Positions 104 through 5,902 of a stretch of 63,373 nucleotides of DNA are shown piece after piece (within the stretch, counting starts at the first letter, position 1; every line of letters begins with the position of its first letter). Below the pieces are notes generated by a model. The model worked only from the letters and a program-made list of their open reading frames with translations, did not search any database and was not told the DNA's origin. The DNA comes from Anaerolineae bacterium (GTDB lineage: Bacteria > Chloroflexota > Anaerolineae > Aggregatilineales > Phototrophicaceae). The stretch covers positions 1 to 63,373 of the forward strand of contig JABWBO010000011.1 of NCBI GenBank assembly GCA_013360465.1, in the 5' to 3' direction. Made by a program: the position numbers and the translations under genes.

Positions 104-1096
104 TCAGTCAAATTCCGGGTGCAGCAGCTCCAGCGTCTGTTTCTCTAGCTCCCATAACTCCATCTCTCGGCGCTGGCGCAGCATATGACGGAGTCGCGGA
201 TAGTTGGCATGATATTCTTTTGACCACTCCTCAGCGAACTTGCGGTCGCGAATCTCGCGCAGGGTCGTCTCCATTAACCGCTCAATCTGCAGTGCATTTA
301 GCCGTTCGAGCCGGCTGAGCATGCCGTACTGCGCGGGAAGCGCCTGCTGTTCCAGGGCGCTGAGCAAGCCAAATTGTGAGGCGGTTCGCAGATAGTCGGC
401 GGTCTCGCCAGAAAGATATAGTTCGGTGAAGACGGCTTCTGGTGAATATCCCGATTCCATCAGGATTTGCGCCGCGCTGATGACGACGCGATGGAACAGC
501 GGCAGGACGGACTGCTGCAAAAACAGGTCAAGCTCGGTTTCCTGCTCGAACTGCACCTCGACAGCTCCGCCGCGCAGCGCGCCCATGCCTTTAGCGATTG
601 CCAGCACCAGTTCCCATGCTTGCCGGGACGAATCCTGGGCGACGGCGACGAAGCTGGCATAGCCGTCTCCGGTCAGAAAGCGTTCGCGGACGGCTGCTCC
701 GAAAGTGCGCGCTGAGACGAGACCGACATCCACGAAGGGCGGCGCTTCGATCAAGCCATAAGTCAGGTTATAGGCGCTGCTGAAGATGAGCGCCTGCCCG
801 CGCTGGAGCCAGGGGGACACTGATTCGATATAGATTTGGGGCATTTCCTCATCGCGCAGGAGCGGCATGATGATGTCTGCGCCCTGCACCGCATCCTGCA
901 TGGTGAACAGTTCGAAACCTTCGCGTTCCGCCTGCTCCATCTTTTCTTGACGCGGCTCGCTGACCAGGACCTGAATGCCGCTGTCGCGCAGGTTCAGGGC
1001 GACCGGTCTGCCCATGTTGCCGTAACCGATGATTGCTACACTCTTGCCCGACAGAGCGTTCAGATCGCCATCTTCATCGTGATATATTACTGTCAT
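104..1096 (-). CDS. ketol-acid reductoisomerase-like protein with altered active site
   Basis: The 330 residues align end to end with class I ketol-acid reductoisomerase (IlvC, valine/isoleucine synthesis): an N-terminal Rossmann fold with GYGNMG at 24-29, then the helical metal-binding domain with QETELDLF at 185-192. The length matches the short IlvC class. The catalytic set is not kept. The active-site His (FGHGLN in IlvC) is FSSAYN at 105-110. The Lys of APKGPGH is Arg130. Asp190 is present, but the next metal-binding Glu is Gln194. The Glu of FEVLHE is kept as Glu225 while the second one is Ser. I infer a paralogue that binds a dinucleotide but is unlikely to catalyse the normal isomeroreduction. 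No ilvB, ilvN or ilvD lies nearby. The start is an ATG with a weak ribosome site. A lipoprotein gene diverges 63 bp away. Confidence 0.75.
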   Translation of the reverse strand: MTVIYHDEDGDLNALSGKSVAIIGYGNMGRPVALNLRDSGIQVLVSEPRQEKMEQAEREGFELFTMQDAVQGADIIMPLLRDEEMPQIYIESVSPWLQRGQALIFSSAYNLTYGLIEAPPFVDVGLVSARTFGAAVRERFLTGDGYASFVAVAQDSSRQAWELVLAIAKGMGALRGGAVEVQFEQETELDLFLQQSVLPLFHRVVISAAQILMESGYSPEAVFTELYLSGETADYLRTASQFGLLSALEQQALPAQYGMLSRLERLNALQIERLMETTLREIRDRKFAEEWSKEYHANYPRLRHMLRQRREMELWELEKQTLELLHPEFD

Positions 1097-1159: not shown

Positions 1160-1606
1160 ATGTTCAAACGATACCTTGCGCTCCTTCTGATCGCAATCGT
1201 GCTAGCCGCCTGCGAGGCTGTGAACCCCCAGCCCACGGTGACTCCGATCCCGTTCGACCGTTTCGGCGTACAGGATGTTTTCACCACCTTCGCACGCGCC
1301 GGTTTGCCCATCGGCGGGCTGGAGCAGGATGTTACAATCTCGCGCGATGGACCCCGCGTGCTGAAAGACCGGTGGGTCTTCGAGATCCCCCGTGTCGCGC
1401 CAGCCGGGGGCCAGGTGATCATCTTCGCCGATTCTGGTCAGCGTGCAGAATGGGAGACCTATATCGCCCGTCTCCGCGACGATGCGGAGACCCGCCGTGA
1501 TGTCATCTACACCTATTTCCATCAGAATATCATGCTTCAGCTCAACACTGGACTGACCAATCAGGAAGCGGCGAGCTACCGGGATGCCTTGCTCAGCCTG
1601 GAGTGA
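1160..1606 (+). CDS. small lipoprotein, unknown function
   Basis: This 148-residue protein begins with a classic lipoprotein signal: positive start, hydrophobic stretch at 5-16 and lipobox LAAC with Cys18. It should be exported and lipid-anchored. The mature part follows a Pro/Thr-rich stretch and has no motif I recognise; it is mixed alpha/beta in appearance and mostly charged. I chose the ATG at 1160 because AGGAG lies 8 bases upstream; the reading frame stays open further upstream only because it runs antisense to the KARI-like gene. The gene converges on the acetyltransferase gene with 17 bp between stop codons. Function unknown. Confidence 0.7.
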   Translation: MFKRYLALLLIAIVLAACEAVNPQPTVTPIPFDRFGVQDVFTTFARAGLPIGGLEQDVTISRDGPRVLKDRWVFEIPRVAPAGGQVIIFADSGQRAEWETYIARLRDDAETRRDVIYTYFHQNIMLQLNTGLTNQEAASYRDALLSLE

Positions 1607-1623: not shown

Positions 1624-2493
1624 TCACACCAGGTCGATCATCCAAACCGGCAGGTCAAAGCCGTTGAGCGCAAAGCCAAAGCGCCGGTAAAGCTGCTGCG
1701 AGCGTTTGTTTGAAGCCTGCGTATTGACGGTCATGGTGAAGATGCTGCGCCGGGCGAAGCGATGCAGCGCATCGGAGATGAGCGCGCTGGCGATGCCCAG
1801 TCCCTGCGCCTGCGGCATCACCGCCAGCCGTGCAAGGTGCGCACCATCGACATAGACGGTGTACAGCGAATAGCCGATGATTGCGCCGTCGCGCACGGCG
1901 GCAGTGGCTATCGACGAGACTTTCTCGGCAAGGCGGACGTCTGCTCTTTCCATCTGCCAGGGGGAAGGGAACGCCGCGTGATCGATGGCGGTCAGCGCGT
2001 CGATGTCTTCGGGATAGATCAACCTCAGGACCACGCCATCGGGCGGCGGAACGTCCAGCACCGGCTGTTTGGCGCGTGCCAGCGTGACGATCTCCTCGAC
2101 CGGATGAAAGCCAAGGTTGCGTAGATGGGAAAGCATCCAGTCGCGGCTGATGAGTAGGGCTACGGTACGGACGCCGCGCATCCGCAGGTGTTCGCTCATC
2201 GCCTGCCATAGGGTAGAGATAGCGCGCCCCGCATCGCCGAAATCGCTGACTACAACCAATCTCAGCCAGCAGGCGCTGTTCAGCGGTGCCGACGCCGCCA
2301 GCGCACCCACAAGCCGGTCTCCAACCCAGGCGAGCAGTGCCGGATGATCGGGGCTGTCCAGCCAGTCTTCCACTTCCTGCCAATCCAGATGGGTGTGGAC
2401 GCGGTAGCTTCTGAAGATCAAGTCACGGATGGCGTGTCGGTAACGACGCTCATAAGGTCTGACCATAGGCACCACGGCGCTGCGCAGAGTCAT
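1624..2493 (-). CDS. tandem GNAT-family N-acetyltransferase
   Basis: The protein (289 residues from the ATG at 2493) contains two GNAT folds. The C-terminal one is complete: residues 222-235 carry the acetyl-CoA loop with QAQGLGIA, followed by the NxxSxxLYRRFGF motif near 252-264, as in RimI-type enzymes. The N-terminal one (about 10-135) keeps the fold pattern and an LGF end, but its pyrophosphate loop is degenerate (DFGDAGRA), so it probably has only a structural role. Tandem GNATs of this kind (MshD is one example) use one active half. The gene starts 10 bp after the helicase-loader gene and is probably co-transcribed with the dnaB operon. An ATG at 2466 is a possible alternative start. 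The substrate cannot be told. Confidence 0.8.
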   Translation of the reverse strand: MTLRSAVVPMVRPYERRYRHAIRDLIFRSYRVHTHLDWQEVEDWLDSPDHPALLAWVGDRLVGALAASAPLNSACWLRLVVVSDFGDAGRAISTLWQAMSEHLRMRGVRTVALLISRDWMLSHLRNLGFHPVEEIVTLARAKQPVLDVPPPDGVVLRLIYPEDIDALTAIDHAAFPSPWQMERADVRLAEKVSSIATAAVRDGAIIGYSLYTVYVDGAHLARLAVMPQAQGLGIASALISDALHRFARRSIFTMTVNTQASNKRSQQLYRRFGFALNGFDLPVWMIDLV

Positions 2494-2503
2494 CGTGGTG
2501 TGT

Positions 2504-3892
2504 TTACCCCTTGCGATTGCTTCTGCGGCTGGGATAGTCGCGCACACGCAGGGAACGGATGTCACAGCGCTGATTATCTTTGATGCGTGTGGCGATCCGC
2601 TGATCGATCTGATCCCATTCATGGAGATGAATAGTGATGACCGTCGGACGCGCCGCGACGTAGCGGTAGTTGAGAAGCTGGAACAGCTTCTCGCGCGCCC
2701 AGGGCGTTGCATTCTGTGTGCCGAGGTCGTCAAGGACGAGCAGCCGGGTATCGCGTACAGCGCTGAAGATCGTATCGTATTGATTGCTGCCGGTAGAGCC
2801 AAACGACTGGCGCAGCTTGTCCAGCAGGTCGGGCACGGTGACGAAGACAACTTCGCCCTCTTTCTCCTTAACCGCGTTGCCTATTGCCGCCGCCAGGTGT
2901 GTTTTGCCCGATGCGCTGCCGCCTACCAGAACCAGCCACTTCTTCGGCTGTTCGGCATATTCTCGTGCTGCCGTCAGGGTTTCGTTCAGGCTGTACTGCT
3001 CGTCCGGCGTCGCATTGGTGCGGGTGTCGAAATTGTCAAAGCGCATTGATGCGTAGATCGTCAGGTCCGAGACAGGATCACGCCCGGAGTCCTGCGCGTT
3101 ACGATAGTCCTGCGCGGCGATGTTGACCTGGCGCACCAGGCTGACATCCACCATGCGGCTGCGCAGACGCGGCTCCATCTGATCCAGCCCGCTGTTGGTC
3201 GTAATCACTGTGGGAAGCGCCAGACTGTAGCGATAATTCATCAACTGATAGAGCTTTTCTCGCGCCCAGGGGCTGGGGTTTTCCGCGCCGAGATCATCGA
3301 GGACGAGCAGCGGCGCCGTGCGAAGGCGCTCGAAAAGCTCATCGTAGCCGACTTCTGAACTTGGACCATAGGTGCTGCGCAGATGGTCGAGCAGGTCGGG
3401 TGCGGTGACGAATATCACCGTGTCGCCGTGTTTGACGCGCTCGTGACCGATGGCGGCAGCCAGGTGTGTCTTGCCACAACCGACGCCGCCCACCAGAAGC
3501 AGCCATCCCTGTGGGTCCTGGGCGTAGTTGTACGCCCGGTTCCATGCCGAATCCAGCGAACTGTTCTGGGCTGCGGTCAAACCGGGCAGCGCCGTTTGGA
3601 AGGTGTCGAAAGTCAGCGTTTTGTACGTCGTCAGGTTGCTGAGTTCGCGCAGTCGTTCGATGCGGTCGTAATCGTCGGTCGGGCGGTAATTTGGGCAGCG
3701 CACCGGTTTGCCGAACTGCGGATGATCGACGGGGACATCCAGGCGCACGAAGCCCATCCCGCCGCACAGCGCGGGAGCGCTGCCGCAGAGCGAGCAAACT
3801 GCGTCTTCGCCGGTCTCACTTGACGATGAAGTCGGAAAGGTCCTCCCAGAGTCGCTGGTCTGTTTCGGCAACAGATCGCGGAGTGGTTTCAT
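2504..3892 (-). CDS. DnaC/DnaI-like helicase loader with two AAA+ domains
   Basis: Loaders of this family open or escort the DnaB ring onto DNA. This 462-residue protein holds two copies of the AAA+ core. After a zinc-binding-like N-terminus (CSLC near 33-36, a CP pair near 66), copy 1 has Walker A GGVGCGKTH at 135-143 and Walker B LLVLDDLG near 195-202. Copy 2 has GGSASGKTH at 324-332 and LLVLDDLG near 384-391. Both repeat the SPWAREKLYQLMNYRY-type block and a PTVIT sensor strand, so the gene arose by internal duplication. Usual DnaC/DnaI proteins have one domain and about 250-330 residues. The second copy lost the usual arginine-rich end seen as RLRSRM in copy 1 (it reads RIATRI). The ATG at 3892 has AGAAGG 8 bases upstream and overlaps the DnaD gene by 77 bp. 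Confidence 0.88.
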   Translation of the reverse strand: MKPLRDLLPKQTSDSGRTFPTSSSSETGEDAVCSLCGSAPALCGGMGFVRLDVPVDHPQFGKPVRCPNYRPTDDYDRIERLRELSNLTTYKTLTFDTFQTALPGLTAAQNSSLDSAWNRAYNYAQDPQGWLLLVGGVGCGKTHLAAAIGHERVKHGDTVIFVTAPDLLDHLRSTYGPSSEVGYDELFERLRTAPLLVLDDLGAENPSPWAREKLYQLMNYRYSLALPTVITTNSGLDQMEPRLRSRMVDVSLVRQVNIAAQDYRNAQDSGRDPVSDLTIYASMRFDNFDTRTNATPDEQYSLNETLTAAREYAEQPKKWLVLVGGSASGKTHLAAAIGNAVKEKEGEVVFVTVPDLLDKLRQSFGSTGSNQYDTIFSAVRDTRLLVLDDLGTQNATPWAREKLFQLLNYRYVAARPTVITIHLHEWDQIDQRIATRIKDNQRCDIRSLRVRDYPSRRSNRKG

Positions 3893-4514
3893 TCTGCCTT
3901 CCTTCTTTCTGCCAGCGGTTGAGAATGGCGCGGACATAGCGCCAGTTGCGCTTGTTGCTCGTCACCGCCAGGCGCATCGCTTCTTCAATCCAGCTGGCGG
4001 GATATTCCTTTTCCGCCGCCAACAGTTCGTCGCGTATCATCGGAGTGAGCGTCCCGATATTCTGCTCGTAGAGGCTGTAAAGGGTGGGGCGCGGCGGCAG
4101 AATCTCGACCGGGTGCGCGCCGGCGACCAACTGCCAGCGCCCCGTGCGGACCTGTCCGACGGCGGCGCGTCCGGCATCGTCGTTGACGAAGAGGATCAGT
4201 TCGTCGATGTCGTTCAACGGCACGGTAGCGCTGAGCAGCGTCCCACGCAGGCAGGCACGTTCCAGAGCGTCGCGGAGTACAGCTTCCGGGGACTCGCCCA
4301 AGCTGGCATAGAAGTCGGGGTGCGCCGCAAAATCGCGCAGCAGAAGGTAGCGCGCCGATCCTTCCCGCTGGCGAATCGCCCATAGGGTAAAGAGCGTCAC
4401 CTTCAGCTCGGCGAGATCGTCGATATGCGGAAGGAGATCGACGATAAATGACTCGTACAGCGGAAAAGAGGCGGCGTTTTTTGTCGAGAATCCTGGATAG
4501 GGTGCGGTCATCAT
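3816..4514 (-). CDS. DnaD-domain replication initiation protein
   Basis: The 232-residue protein has an N-terminal winged-helix-like half and, from about 148 to 210, a DnaD/DnaB_2 C-terminal domain: YSLYEQNIGTLTP, then WIEEAMRLAV and the NWRYVRAILNRW motif that binds DNA in Bacillus DnaD. In Firmicutes, DnaD and a DnaI-type loader bring the helicase to the origin or to stalled forks. Here the gene lies 17 bp behind dnaB and overlaps the tandem-AAA+ loader, so all three are very likely one primosome operon. Two ATG codons stand side by side at 4514 and 4511; GGAAAG precedes them. Confidence 0.85.
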   Translation of the reverse strand: MMTAPYPGFSTKNAASFPLYESFIVDLLPHIDDLAELKVTLFTLWAIRQREGSARYLLLRDFAAHPDFYASLGESPEAVLRDALERACLRGTLLSATVPLNDIDELILFVNDDAGRAAVGQVRTGRWQLVAGAHPVEILPPRPTLYSLYEQNIGTLTPMIRDELLAAEKEYPASWIEEAMRLAVTSNKRNWRYVRAILNRWQKEGRQNETTPRSVAETDQRLWEDLSDFIVK

Positions 4515-4531: not shown

Positions 4532-5902
4532 CTAGCTGCGCTGACTCATATCAATGGTCTGGGTGCGGTAGTCGGAGAAGCGCGTGAGCGAGTTCTCGAA
4601 ATACAGACTGATCGTCCCGGTTGGACCGTTGCGGTGCTTGGCGATGATGATGTCGGCTTTGTTGGGCGTCTCGCTGGCTTCGTTATAGACCGAATCGCGG
4701 TAGAGAAAGGCTACAATATCAGCGTCCTGTTCCAGGCTGCCGCTTTCGCGCAGATCGGAAAGCTGCGGACGCTTGTCCTGGCGCTGTTCGACAGCGCGGG
4801 AAAGCTGTGCCGCGGTGAACACGGGCACGTTCAGTTCGCGGGCGATTTCCTTGATGTTGCGACTGATGAAGCTGATCTCCTGAACACGGTTGTTCTCGTA
4901 GACACCGCCGCTGCTCATCAACTGGATATAGTCGAGGATCACCAGGTCCAGACCGTGTTCATGGGCGACACGGCGGCATTTGGTTCGCATCTGGATGGGC
5001 GTCAGCGCCGGGCTGTCGTCAATGAAGACCATCAGGCTGCCCAGCCGCCCCGTAGCATGGACGAACTTCGCCCATTCCTGAGGCGTGAATTGACCGGTGC
5101 GCATCTTCTGTGTGTTGATACCTGTCTCCATCGAAAGCAGGCGTTGGACGATCTGCTCGTGCCCCATCTCCATCGTGAAGATCAACACGCGCGCCCCGTA
5201 CAGGCTCGCCGAATTAAGCGCCATCGACAGCAGAAAGCTGGTTTTACCCATGCCGGGACGTCCGGCGAAGATCAGCAGATCGCTGCGCTGTAAGCCCCCC
5301 AGCATCTTATCGAGGTCGCGAAATCCAGTCGGCAGACCAAGGGGTTCATCGGGGTGCTGATAGAGATACTCCATGCGCCCGAAATAGCTGTTGATGGCTT
5401 CGGACATCGGGATGATCTCGCGGTTCGAGCTGCGCTCGGTCACCCGGAAGAGGCGGCTCTCCGCTTCTGTGATGACCTTCTCGGTGGTCATCTGTTCGTC
5501 GCGGGCGATGTCTTTAATCTCGTCCGCTGCCGCCAGCAGCCGCCGGCGAATTGCCGCGCGTTCGACCAGCCTGCCGTAGGATTCGGCATGATAAGCGCTG
5601 GGGGTGTTGTTGGCGAGCGAGAGCAGGTAGCTTGGTCCGCCAACTTCGTCCAGGACGTTGTGCGCCCGCAGTTCGTCGATCAGGGTGATGTAGTCGATGC
5701 GGTCGTTGCGGTCATTGATGCGGCGCAGCGCGTCCCAGATGTGGACGTGACGGACAAAATAGAAATCATCGCTGGTCAGAAATGACGCCAGCGCGAGAAA
5801 AATATCGCTGTTCACCAGCACAGCGCCGATGACTGCCTGTTCAGCCTCCTGGCTGAACGGAGCCAGCCCATCGCTGAGTGGCTGCTGCCGATTGTTTGTC
5901 AT
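4532..5902 (-). CDS. dnaB: replicative DNA helicase DnaB
   Basis: A full-length DnaB of 456 residues. The N-terminal helical domain (about 15-120) binds primase; the C-terminal RecA-like motor has Walker A GRPGMGKTS at 214-222, the catalytic Glu in TMEMGHEQ near 245, and Walker B VILDYIQLMS at 321-330, followed by the SRAVEQRQDKRPQLSDLRESG stretch that carries the DNA-binding loop and arginine finger of the family. There is no intein. It unwinds DNA ahead of the replication fork as a hexamer. It is the first gene of the minus-strand operon dnaB - dnaD-like - tandem loader - acetyltransferase, separated from the upstream nuclease gene by a terminator. Confidence 0.97.
   Translation of the reverse strand: MTNNRQQPLSDGLAPFSQEAEQAVIGAVLVNSDIFLALASFLTSDDFYFVRHVHIWDALRRINDRNDRIDYITLIDELRAHNVLDEVGGPSYLLSLANNTPSAYHAESYGRLVERAAIRRRLLAAADEIKDIARDEQMTTEKVITEAESRLFRVTERSSNREIIPMSEAINSYFGRMEYLYQHPDEPLGLPTGFRDLDKMLGGLQRSDLLIFAGRPGMGKTSFLLSMALNSASLYGARVLIFTMEMGHEQIVQRLLSMETGINTQKMRTGQFTPQEWAKFVHATGRLGSLMVFIDDSPALTPIQMRTKCRRVAHEHGLDLVILDYIQLMSSGGVYENNRVQEISFISRNIKEIARELNVPVFTAAQLSRAVEQRQDKRPQLSDLRESGSLEQDADIVAFLYRDSVYNEASETPNKADIIIAKHRNGPTGTISLYFENSLTRFSDYRTQTIDMSQRS

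Follow-up and report, generated by a model that had tools for sequence, protein, structure and literature searches.

Sso-KARI, recorded as 'Putative ketol-acid reductoisomerase 2' of Saccharolobus solfataricus, is said, after work by Chen and colleagues in 2019, to be an active, NADH/NADPH-bispecific ketol-acid reductoisomerase (KARI) that acts on acetolactate. D-apionate oxidoisomerase, ApnO, performs NAD-linked migration chemistry in sugar-acid catabolism and is likened to the protein described here by its chemistry. A mutant study of E. coli KARI by Tyagi in 2005 reportedly dealt with separable activities. Isomerisation and reduction by KARI can be separated, as a further paper has it (PMC4353338).

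In the canonical class I enzyme Sac-KARI, Mg2+ I is held by D191 and E195 and Mg2+ II by D191, E227 and E231, as reported for it (PMC5940873), and for MtKARI site A is given as Glu195 and Asp191 and site B as Asp191 and Glu231, with Glu227 farther away (PMC8615647). BurG, a cyclopropanol synthase, is a KARI-fold paralogue found in genomes that carry ilvC too; it uses NAD+, binds two Mg2+, has its own orthologue clade and is encoded in a biosynthetic cluster (gonydiol), and its E232Q variant loses cyclopropanol formation and retains NADH-driven hydroxypyruvate reduction (PMC9359912). The titles of the Sso-KARI structures (PDB 6jcv, 6jcz, 6jd1 and 6jd2) list Mg2+, NADPH or NADH, and the inhibitor CPD, and of the titles listed in our literature search none deals with its kinetics. 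An E195S mutant of the S. pneumoniae KARI is also among PDB titles, with no paper on it found in that search, and PMC13400903, PMC10465181 and PMC8471054 proved not to be decisive.

Here we compare with these systems a KARI-like protein encoded near the first base of a 63,373-nucleotide stretch of Anaerolineae DNA, which is called the window throughout (Table 1). A preliminary description had presented it as a class I IlvC homologue with a dismantled active site.

Fold and active-site residues

The reading frame is intact, and the plus strand over the same interval is full of stops. Pfam KARI_N (E 2.7e-46, 157.6 bits against a cut-off of 20.6) and KARI_C (E 2.1e-19, 70.7 bits against 29.1) together span the whole protein, both above their gathering cut-offs. 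Among the 25 of 55 families listed, the protein falls below the curated cut-offs of all four NCBIfam IlvC models, with 204.8 bits against 226.15 for TIGR00465 and 236.8 against 336, 173.3 against 406 and 67.3 against 713 bits for the others. Searched as a single sequence against solved structures, it matches Sso-KARI 6jcv best, at 203 bits. An AF2 model built on a 29-row alignment (mean pLDDT 94.3, pTM 0.89) ranks KARIs first in Foldseek and VIA-align, with VIA Z scores of 38.5 to 8ep7 (rmsd 2.1, 326 aligned), 38.4 to BurG 7pct (rmsd 1.9, 329 aligned) and 37.1 to Sso-KARI 6jd2 (rmsd 2.1, 325 aligned, with 34% identity in the structural alignment). The protein as modelled has the full class I KARI fold, and it is likened to BurG by fold, presumed cofactor and paralogy.

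In the nucleotide-binding loop, G24, G26, G29 and R30 are invariant in all 14 rows from the genus. The class I fold and the retained nucleotide motif of the preliminary description are thus borne out by the Pfam domains, the model and the conserved GxGxxG. After the second Rossmann strand the 14 genus rows have SEP, HEP, ADP or CDP, and this acidic residue suggests, as far as sequence can tell, that the cofactor may be NADH rather than NADPH.

Active-site positions (108, 131, 191, 195, 227, 231, 251 and 252) are numbered here after the normal IlvC of the same genome, with separate numbers for the window protein where stated. Canonical rows have H108, K131, D191, E195, E227, E231 and S252, where the window protein has S, R, D, Q, E, E and A. 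Alignment with the genome's own IlvC confirms three replacements proposed earlier, H108 to S107, K131 to R130 and E195 to Q194, and likewise the retention of D191 and E227 as D190 and E225; it adds a further change, S252 to A252, that was absent from the earlier list. The fourth proposed loss fared differently. The second Glu of the pair had been read as Ser, and a Ser does stand at E+4, but the window protein has E-LYLSG-E against the canonical E-CLH-E, and the two-residue insertion shifts the alignment so that the conserved Glu (E231) follows two residues later. We therefore reject the count of four lost residues: the proviso that residues might only be shifted applies to this one, and the other three are truly replaced.

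Both Glu of the putative site II are present, but with two extra residues between them, and the AF2 model has a helix break at Ser229-Gly230. Counted from E227 through E231, seven residues make up the segment in 94 of 96 non-canonical rows (31/31 in the clade of the window protein and 63/65 elsewhere) and in 0 of 25 canonical rows, all of which have five; a Glu follows the insertion in 95 of the 96. Set against canonical class I IlvC (the genome's own, on contig C220, and Sac-KARI, 5yeq), the window protein has the same fold, length, Rossmann loop, D190 and E225 and differs in the replacement of H108, K131, E195 and S252, in the insertion before the second Glu, in its scores below the curated cut-offs and in having no ilv gene on its visible side. 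It is like canonical IlvC in fold and lacks several of the defining features tested.

Table 1. Features of the KARI-like gene, its product and the adjoining genes, in window coordinates
Feature	Position	Strand	Remarks
KARI-like CDS	104..1096	minus	330 aa; ATG 1096-1094, stop 106-104
Nucleotide-binding loop region, residues 18-29	1010..1045	minus	KSVAIIGYGNMG; GxGxxG at 24-29
Ser107 (His108 in canonical IlvC)	776..778	minus	S in 30/31 clade and 51/65 other non-canonical rows
Arg130 (Lys131 in canonical IlvC)	707..709	minus	R in 22/31 clade and 63/65 other non-canonical rows
Asp190, bridging Mg2+ ligand position	527..529	minus	Kept; D in 30/31 clade rows
Gln194 (Glu195, Mg2+ site I ligand position)	515..517	minus	Clade-specific loss
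Glu225 (Glu227, Mg2+ site II position)	422..424	minus	Kept; clade rows E 20, D 7, S 3, G 1
Ser229-Gly230-Glu231	404..412	minus	Two-residue insertion ahead of second conserved Glu
Gln251-Ala252	341..346	minus	Canonical Val251-Ser252; His251-Ser252 in most other non-canonical rows
Putative lipoprotein gene (named by eye)	1160..1606	plus	Divergent; between KARI-like and GNAT genes
GNAT acetyltransferase	1624..2493	minus	Upstream, co-directional; families tested on L050 orthologue
DnaC/IstB-like AAA protein	2504..3937	minus	Two tandem ATPase stretches; Pfam on L050 orthologue
DnaD-like replication protein	3816..4514	minus	Pfam DnaB_2 in L050 orthologue
DnaB replicative helicase	4532..5902	minus	Pfam on L050 orthologue

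Loss of Glu195 within a wider non-canonical set

Scanning a single genome for each species gave 573 confirmed matches, of which the best 80 were used, a choice that leans towards the query. These best 80 include Anaerolineae, Loki-, Heimdall-, Thor-, Hel- and Sigynarchaeota, Acidobacteria, Planctomycetes, Armatimonadetes, spirochaetes (e.g. Treponema socranskii), Halanaerobium congolense and a Haladaptatus plasmid, and six of the 80 have canonical residues (L159, L160, L161, L162, L165 and L169). Residues were counted over 121 aligned rows, namely 31 of the window clade, 65 other non-canonical and 25 canonical, leaving out L166, L131 and L104 (truncated or partial), L109, L149 and L154 (duplicates), L086 (same as a canonical row) and proteins identical to others; Sso-KARI, added for a 122-row analysis, stands outside the 121. 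Trees were made in the quick mode of IQ-TREE and midpoint rooted, and their long branches include L067, L156, L157, L164 and Sso-KARI.

The check by a tree with homologues, proposed in the preliminary description, puts the window protein in a clade of 31 rows (SH-aLRT 99) whose record titles or group codes all mark them as Chloroflexota of Anaerolineae type, apart from the canonical IlvC rows, which form a clade with support of 99 in the 121-row tree. With the midpoint root, the nearest clade consists of five longer proteins (L068, L069, L070, L075 and L126; SH-aLRT 92) and the non-canonical set may be a grade; Sso-KARI lies within no supported set.

Three marks set the non-canonical, Sso-KARI-type proteins apart, Ser108, Arg131 and the seven-residue E..SxE segment, and all are present in the window protein. 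Among the rows of the tree, SRDEEES is the most frequent signature (41/121). At position 108 the exceptions to Ser are one A in the clade and H (11), T (2) and A (1) in the other non-canonical rows, and at position 131 the remaining clade rows have K (5) or Q (4). On the 122-row tree that includes Sso-KARI, H108 changed four times, K131 three times and the segment length once. Sso-KARI has in common with the window protein Ser for His108, Arg for Lys131, the SG insertion, D191, E227 and E231; unlike it, Sso-KARI retains E195, H251 and S252 (signature SRDEEEHS, with 251 inserted before 252). Because Sso-KARI carries them, Ser107 and Arg130 point to a site variant that still binds KARI ligands and not to decay.

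The metal site tells clade and relatives apart at one position. Where all 65 other non-canonical and all 25 canonical rows have E195, the clade has Q (26) or H (5), so that this Glu is absent from 31/31 tree rows of a single Anaerolineae clade against 0/90 others, a loss that takes one change on the 121-row tree. Since E195 is a ligand of Mg2+ I in Sac-KARI and of site A in MtKARI, the change to Gln strikes site I. The other ligand positions are widely kept: D191 is replaced by A in one clade row and is D in 62/65 other non-canonical rows, E227 is E in 63/65 of the latter, and position 231 is E in 30 clade rows (R in one) and in 65/65 others. His251 is found in 61/65 other non-canonical rows against 5/31 clade rows, in none of the 25 rows of the subclade that holds the window protein and in five of the remaining six; the window protein has Gln and Gln for the E195 and H251 of other non-canonical rows. 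Position 252 in the clade is S (22), P (3), A (3), T (2) or G (1), and S in 59/65 others. Of the earlier picture of a dismantled site, the loss of E195 is borne out in all 31 tree rows of the clade. Ser107, Arg130 and the insertion are common to many conserved KARI-like proteins, Sso-KARI among them, and 'dismantled' is too strong a word.

These counts bear on whether the protein could be a working isomeroreductase or oxidoisomerase of Sso-KARI type whose metal site tolerates Gln and which acts on another substrate. The features in common with a protein whose structure titles name Mg2+, NADPH or NADH, and CPD speak for this, as do the sugar-acid-type genes found near some non-canonical members (below); E195, kept in every other non-canonical row and lost in every row here, and H251, absent from 26/31 clade rows, speak against it, and we consider it unlikely.

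Some clade members have lost more of the site. A subclade of four (L106, L107, L108 and L111) has E227 changed to G or S together with R131 to Q and retains D191, E231 and H251, and in L067 D191 has become A and E231 R. Outside the tree, a partial, degraded-looking relative (L195; G233:C211:3-797, minus strand), from a genome that is 74% complete, has by eye GYDAVG for GYGNMG, Thr at D191, Glu at 195, Asp at E227 and Lys at E231. As this relative breaks the E195 rule and lacks a normal Rossmann loop and metal site, it counts against an enzyme that is conserved in all members, and it moved some of the odds from a reductase towards a non-catalytic reading. In the 14 genus rows, by comparison, S107, D190, Q194, E225, S229, G230 and E231 are invariant.

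The five longer proteins share Ser108, Arg131 and the insertion with the window protein and differ from it in retaining E195 and H251 and in a C-terminal SCP2 domain, found by Pfam in L068 (6667-8190) and L070 (2157-3638) at 34.0 and 40.8 bits, respectively; L069, L075 and L126 are of the same length class. The genes ahead of the KARI-like genes of L075 and L126 belong to one cluster, and Pfam identifies that of L126 as a sulfatase; in the L071 lineage a separate SCP2-like gene (22.4 bits against a cut-off of 21.3) adjoins the KARI-like gene. Our literature search found no paper on a KARI-SCP2 fusion, its sole match being off-topic by title. Elsewhere, genome G208 (L085, 8624-10706) has two tandem KARI-like genes in which Asp191 is replaced by Asn and Lys131 by Ala or Thr; their long branch lies next to canonical IlvC.

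Gene context, distribution and selection

The putative lipoprotein gene has no Pfam match; it adjoins the KARI-like gene in 14/14 genus rows and in G287 (L188) and was not detected at that place in the remaining rows examined. The best NCBIfam match of the GNAT protein, taken on its L050 orthologue, is rimI at 65.6 bits, below the cut-off of 86.4. The DnaC/IstB-like protein, of helicase-loader type, adjoins the DnaD-like gene and dnaB. In a context sample of 49 rows (51 less two repeats, L171 and L181), 33 have a co-directional GNAT gene at most 700 bp upstream, and the same 33 have the DnaC-like gene upstream. Among the 16 without that arrangement, L057 and L175 lie at contig ends and L188 has its GNAT gene 4.7 kb off. 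L066 comes from another family of the order; there the GNAT and KARI-like genes are still paired, and DnaC lies 6 kb away. A HEAT-repeat gene (Pfam-tested in one row) is downstream in 11/49.

The earlier statement that no branched-chain gene adjoins holds for the visible side, where we found no ilv gene; downstream, the contig ends at base 1. Whereas BurG is encoded in a biosynthetic cluster, the visible, upstream neighbours of the window gene are replication-type genes. The KARI-like gene has a settled place among housekeeping genes, and this context names no substrate. One could imagine the KARI-fold protein as a stable member of the replication-initiation cluster (dnaB, dnaD-like, dnaC-like and GNAT genes) of one Anaerolineae family that acts there as an NAD(H)-binding regulator or small-molecule sensor, making the loading of the helicase or the acetylation of proteins depend on the state of redox or of branched keto acids, and is no metabolic enzyme; we hold this to be improbable.

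Around non-canonical members outside the clade, 115 co-directional neighbours match 136 Pfam families, the commonest in 6/115 (Epimerase 6, Ras 6, Sulfatase 5, and GntP permease, short-chain dehydrogenase and xylose-isomerase-like 4 each), and no single substrate is indicated by these 115 neighbours. Genes for a GntP permease, a GntR/FCD regulator, an SMP-30 lactonase and a PF07005/PF17042 kinase lie near some of these members, which suggests that part of the non-canonical set works on sugar acids or other small acids and is no evidence on the window gene. In Halanaerobium congolense (L138, 994-5861), a PrpR/sigma-54 regulator is near and a PF07005/PF17042 kinase-type gene lies two genes downstream of the KARI-like gene, whose locus is possibly a catabolic cluster. 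In six Lokiarchaeota loci (L112, L115, L120, L121, L128 and L146), the non-canonical KARI gene directly follows a gene of one cluster (c6), presumably the six Ras-family GTPase matches. This cluster and that of L075 and L126 rest on crude longest-ORF gene calls.

The preliminary description had asked whether a normal ilvC lies elsewhere in the genome, and there is one (G000:C220:16406-17338). Besides the window gene, a KARI_C search of the assembly finds one further place, C220:16955-17380 (208 bits). The ORF there has 336 aa and all canonical residues and is preceded by an ORF that by eye resembles the small subunit of acetolactate synthase. With such a gene in place, and with E195, H108 and K131 replaced and scores below the NCBIfam cut-offs, it is very improbable that the window protein, for all its full fold and domain match, is a second IlvC still working as an acetolactate KARI.

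Counting its own, 14 of 15 genomes of the genus have the window protein, the other 13 at 60-97% identity, and 13 of the 14 carriers also have a match to KARI at 33-36% identity. In its stead G009 has a frame of 507 aa, in which KARI_C matches two stretches at 100.7 and 32.6 bits (L191, G009:C1:913302-913961) and which by our own reading may be class II KARI-like. The fifteenth, G002 (78% complete), gave no match to the window protein or to another KARI. By our reading of the hits, a clade-level match (best E-value <= 1.4e-78) occurs in 90/98 genomes of the family, counting the partial matches of G224 and G233; the eight without one are G002, G190, G219, G229, G234, G239, G243 and G246. At least 192 bits to KARI_C, as expected of class I IlvC, are reached by a further match in 84 of the 90. 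As for the others, G009, G218 and G222 lack a class I ilvC match and carry frames of 504-542 aa in which KARI_C matches twice, a layout known from long class II KARIs; G232 has two KARI_C pieces at contig ends, G245 has a contig-edge piece of 49.9 bits, and G288 (68% complete) gave no KARI_C match besides the clade-level one. In a sample of the phylum at E 1e-85, 2/301 genomes match, both of the family of the window genome.

A 97% identical protein is encoded in a contig interior in G006, with a dN/dS of 0.038 for the pair, and two further close pairs give 0.053 and 0.058. The gene is under strong purifying selection in this lineage and is not decaying. Its place at a contig end and the degraded look of the G233 relative might have suggested a decaying duplicate or an assembly artefact; the G006 copy, the dN/dS and the presence in 90/98 genomes refute this for the lineage of the window protein, and as a general account we give it almost no credence. 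A pseudogene in this lineage is likewise rejected on dN/dS and spread. Internal stops were flagged in many genomes of group g6; in G203, the one checked, the protein ends at 326 aa and the 327-codon match reaches its stop codon.

Proposed function and implications

We propose, with a probability of roughly 0.4, that the window protein is a KARI-fold, NAD(H)-dependent oxidoreductase that arose from a non-canonical KARI lineage and works without two-metal alkyl migration. With the site I carboxylate gone, at most the site II Mg2+ would be held, by D190, E225 and E231, from which we infer that the two-metal alkyl migration of acetolactate is lost; hydride transfer between NAD(H) and a substrate resembling a 2-oxo or 2-hydroxy acid may have been retained. 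BurG E232Q, in which another Glu is altered, sets a precedent: an active-site Glu of a KARI-type enzyme can be lost and reduction kept. The E195 loss in 31/31 against 0/90 rows, the invariant residues, the dN/dS, the 90/98 genomes, the model and the BurG precedent count for this proposal. Counting against it are the further losses in L106, L107, L108, L111, L067 and the G233 relative, the absence of His at both 108 and 251, Ala in place of S252 in the window protein, and a replication-gene context that names no substrate. Few acid-base groups remain in the protein beyond R130, D190 and the Glu pair, and we know of no activity for any member of the clade.

The main rival, second to the oxidoreductase and rather doubtful in our view, is a non-catalytic pseudoenzyme that binds NAD(H) in most members and either senses or partners the true IlvC or a protein encoded nearby. 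Such a role would fit a retained fold and Rossmann loop from which a metal ligand and both candidate histidines, together with Ser252 in the window protein, have gone; it would also fit the further losses in five clade rows, the G233 fragment with its broken loop, and the class I IlvC-scoring gene that accompanies the clade-level match in 84/90 family genomes. It is opposed by D191 and E231, each kept in 30/31 tree rows, and by the restriction of Gln or His at position 195 to the tree rows of the clade. A new reaction or a binding role, the alternatives offered in the preliminary description, is still the best kind of reading, given the E195 loss, the dN/dS, the separate ilvC and the 90/98 genomes.

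The chemical centre of this protein was rewritten, strong selection has since preserved it, and most likely its job differs from that of IlvC. What distinguishes the clade is the loss of E195, as the Ser, the Arg and the insertion are common to a wide family that includes the solved archaeal Sso-KARI. There is a broad KARI-like set with a different set of residues, in which a single lineage has, one time, lost a metal ligand. As a natural experiment, this can help to tell the KARI residues needed for migration from those needed for hydride transfer. None of eight non-canonical members scanned had an NCBIfam name other than IlvC, and all eight, unlike the window protein, pass the TIGR00465 cut-off. 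Because curated models name these members only as IlvC, valine and isoleucine pathways may have been wrongly called in Asgard archaea, Chloroflexota and others.
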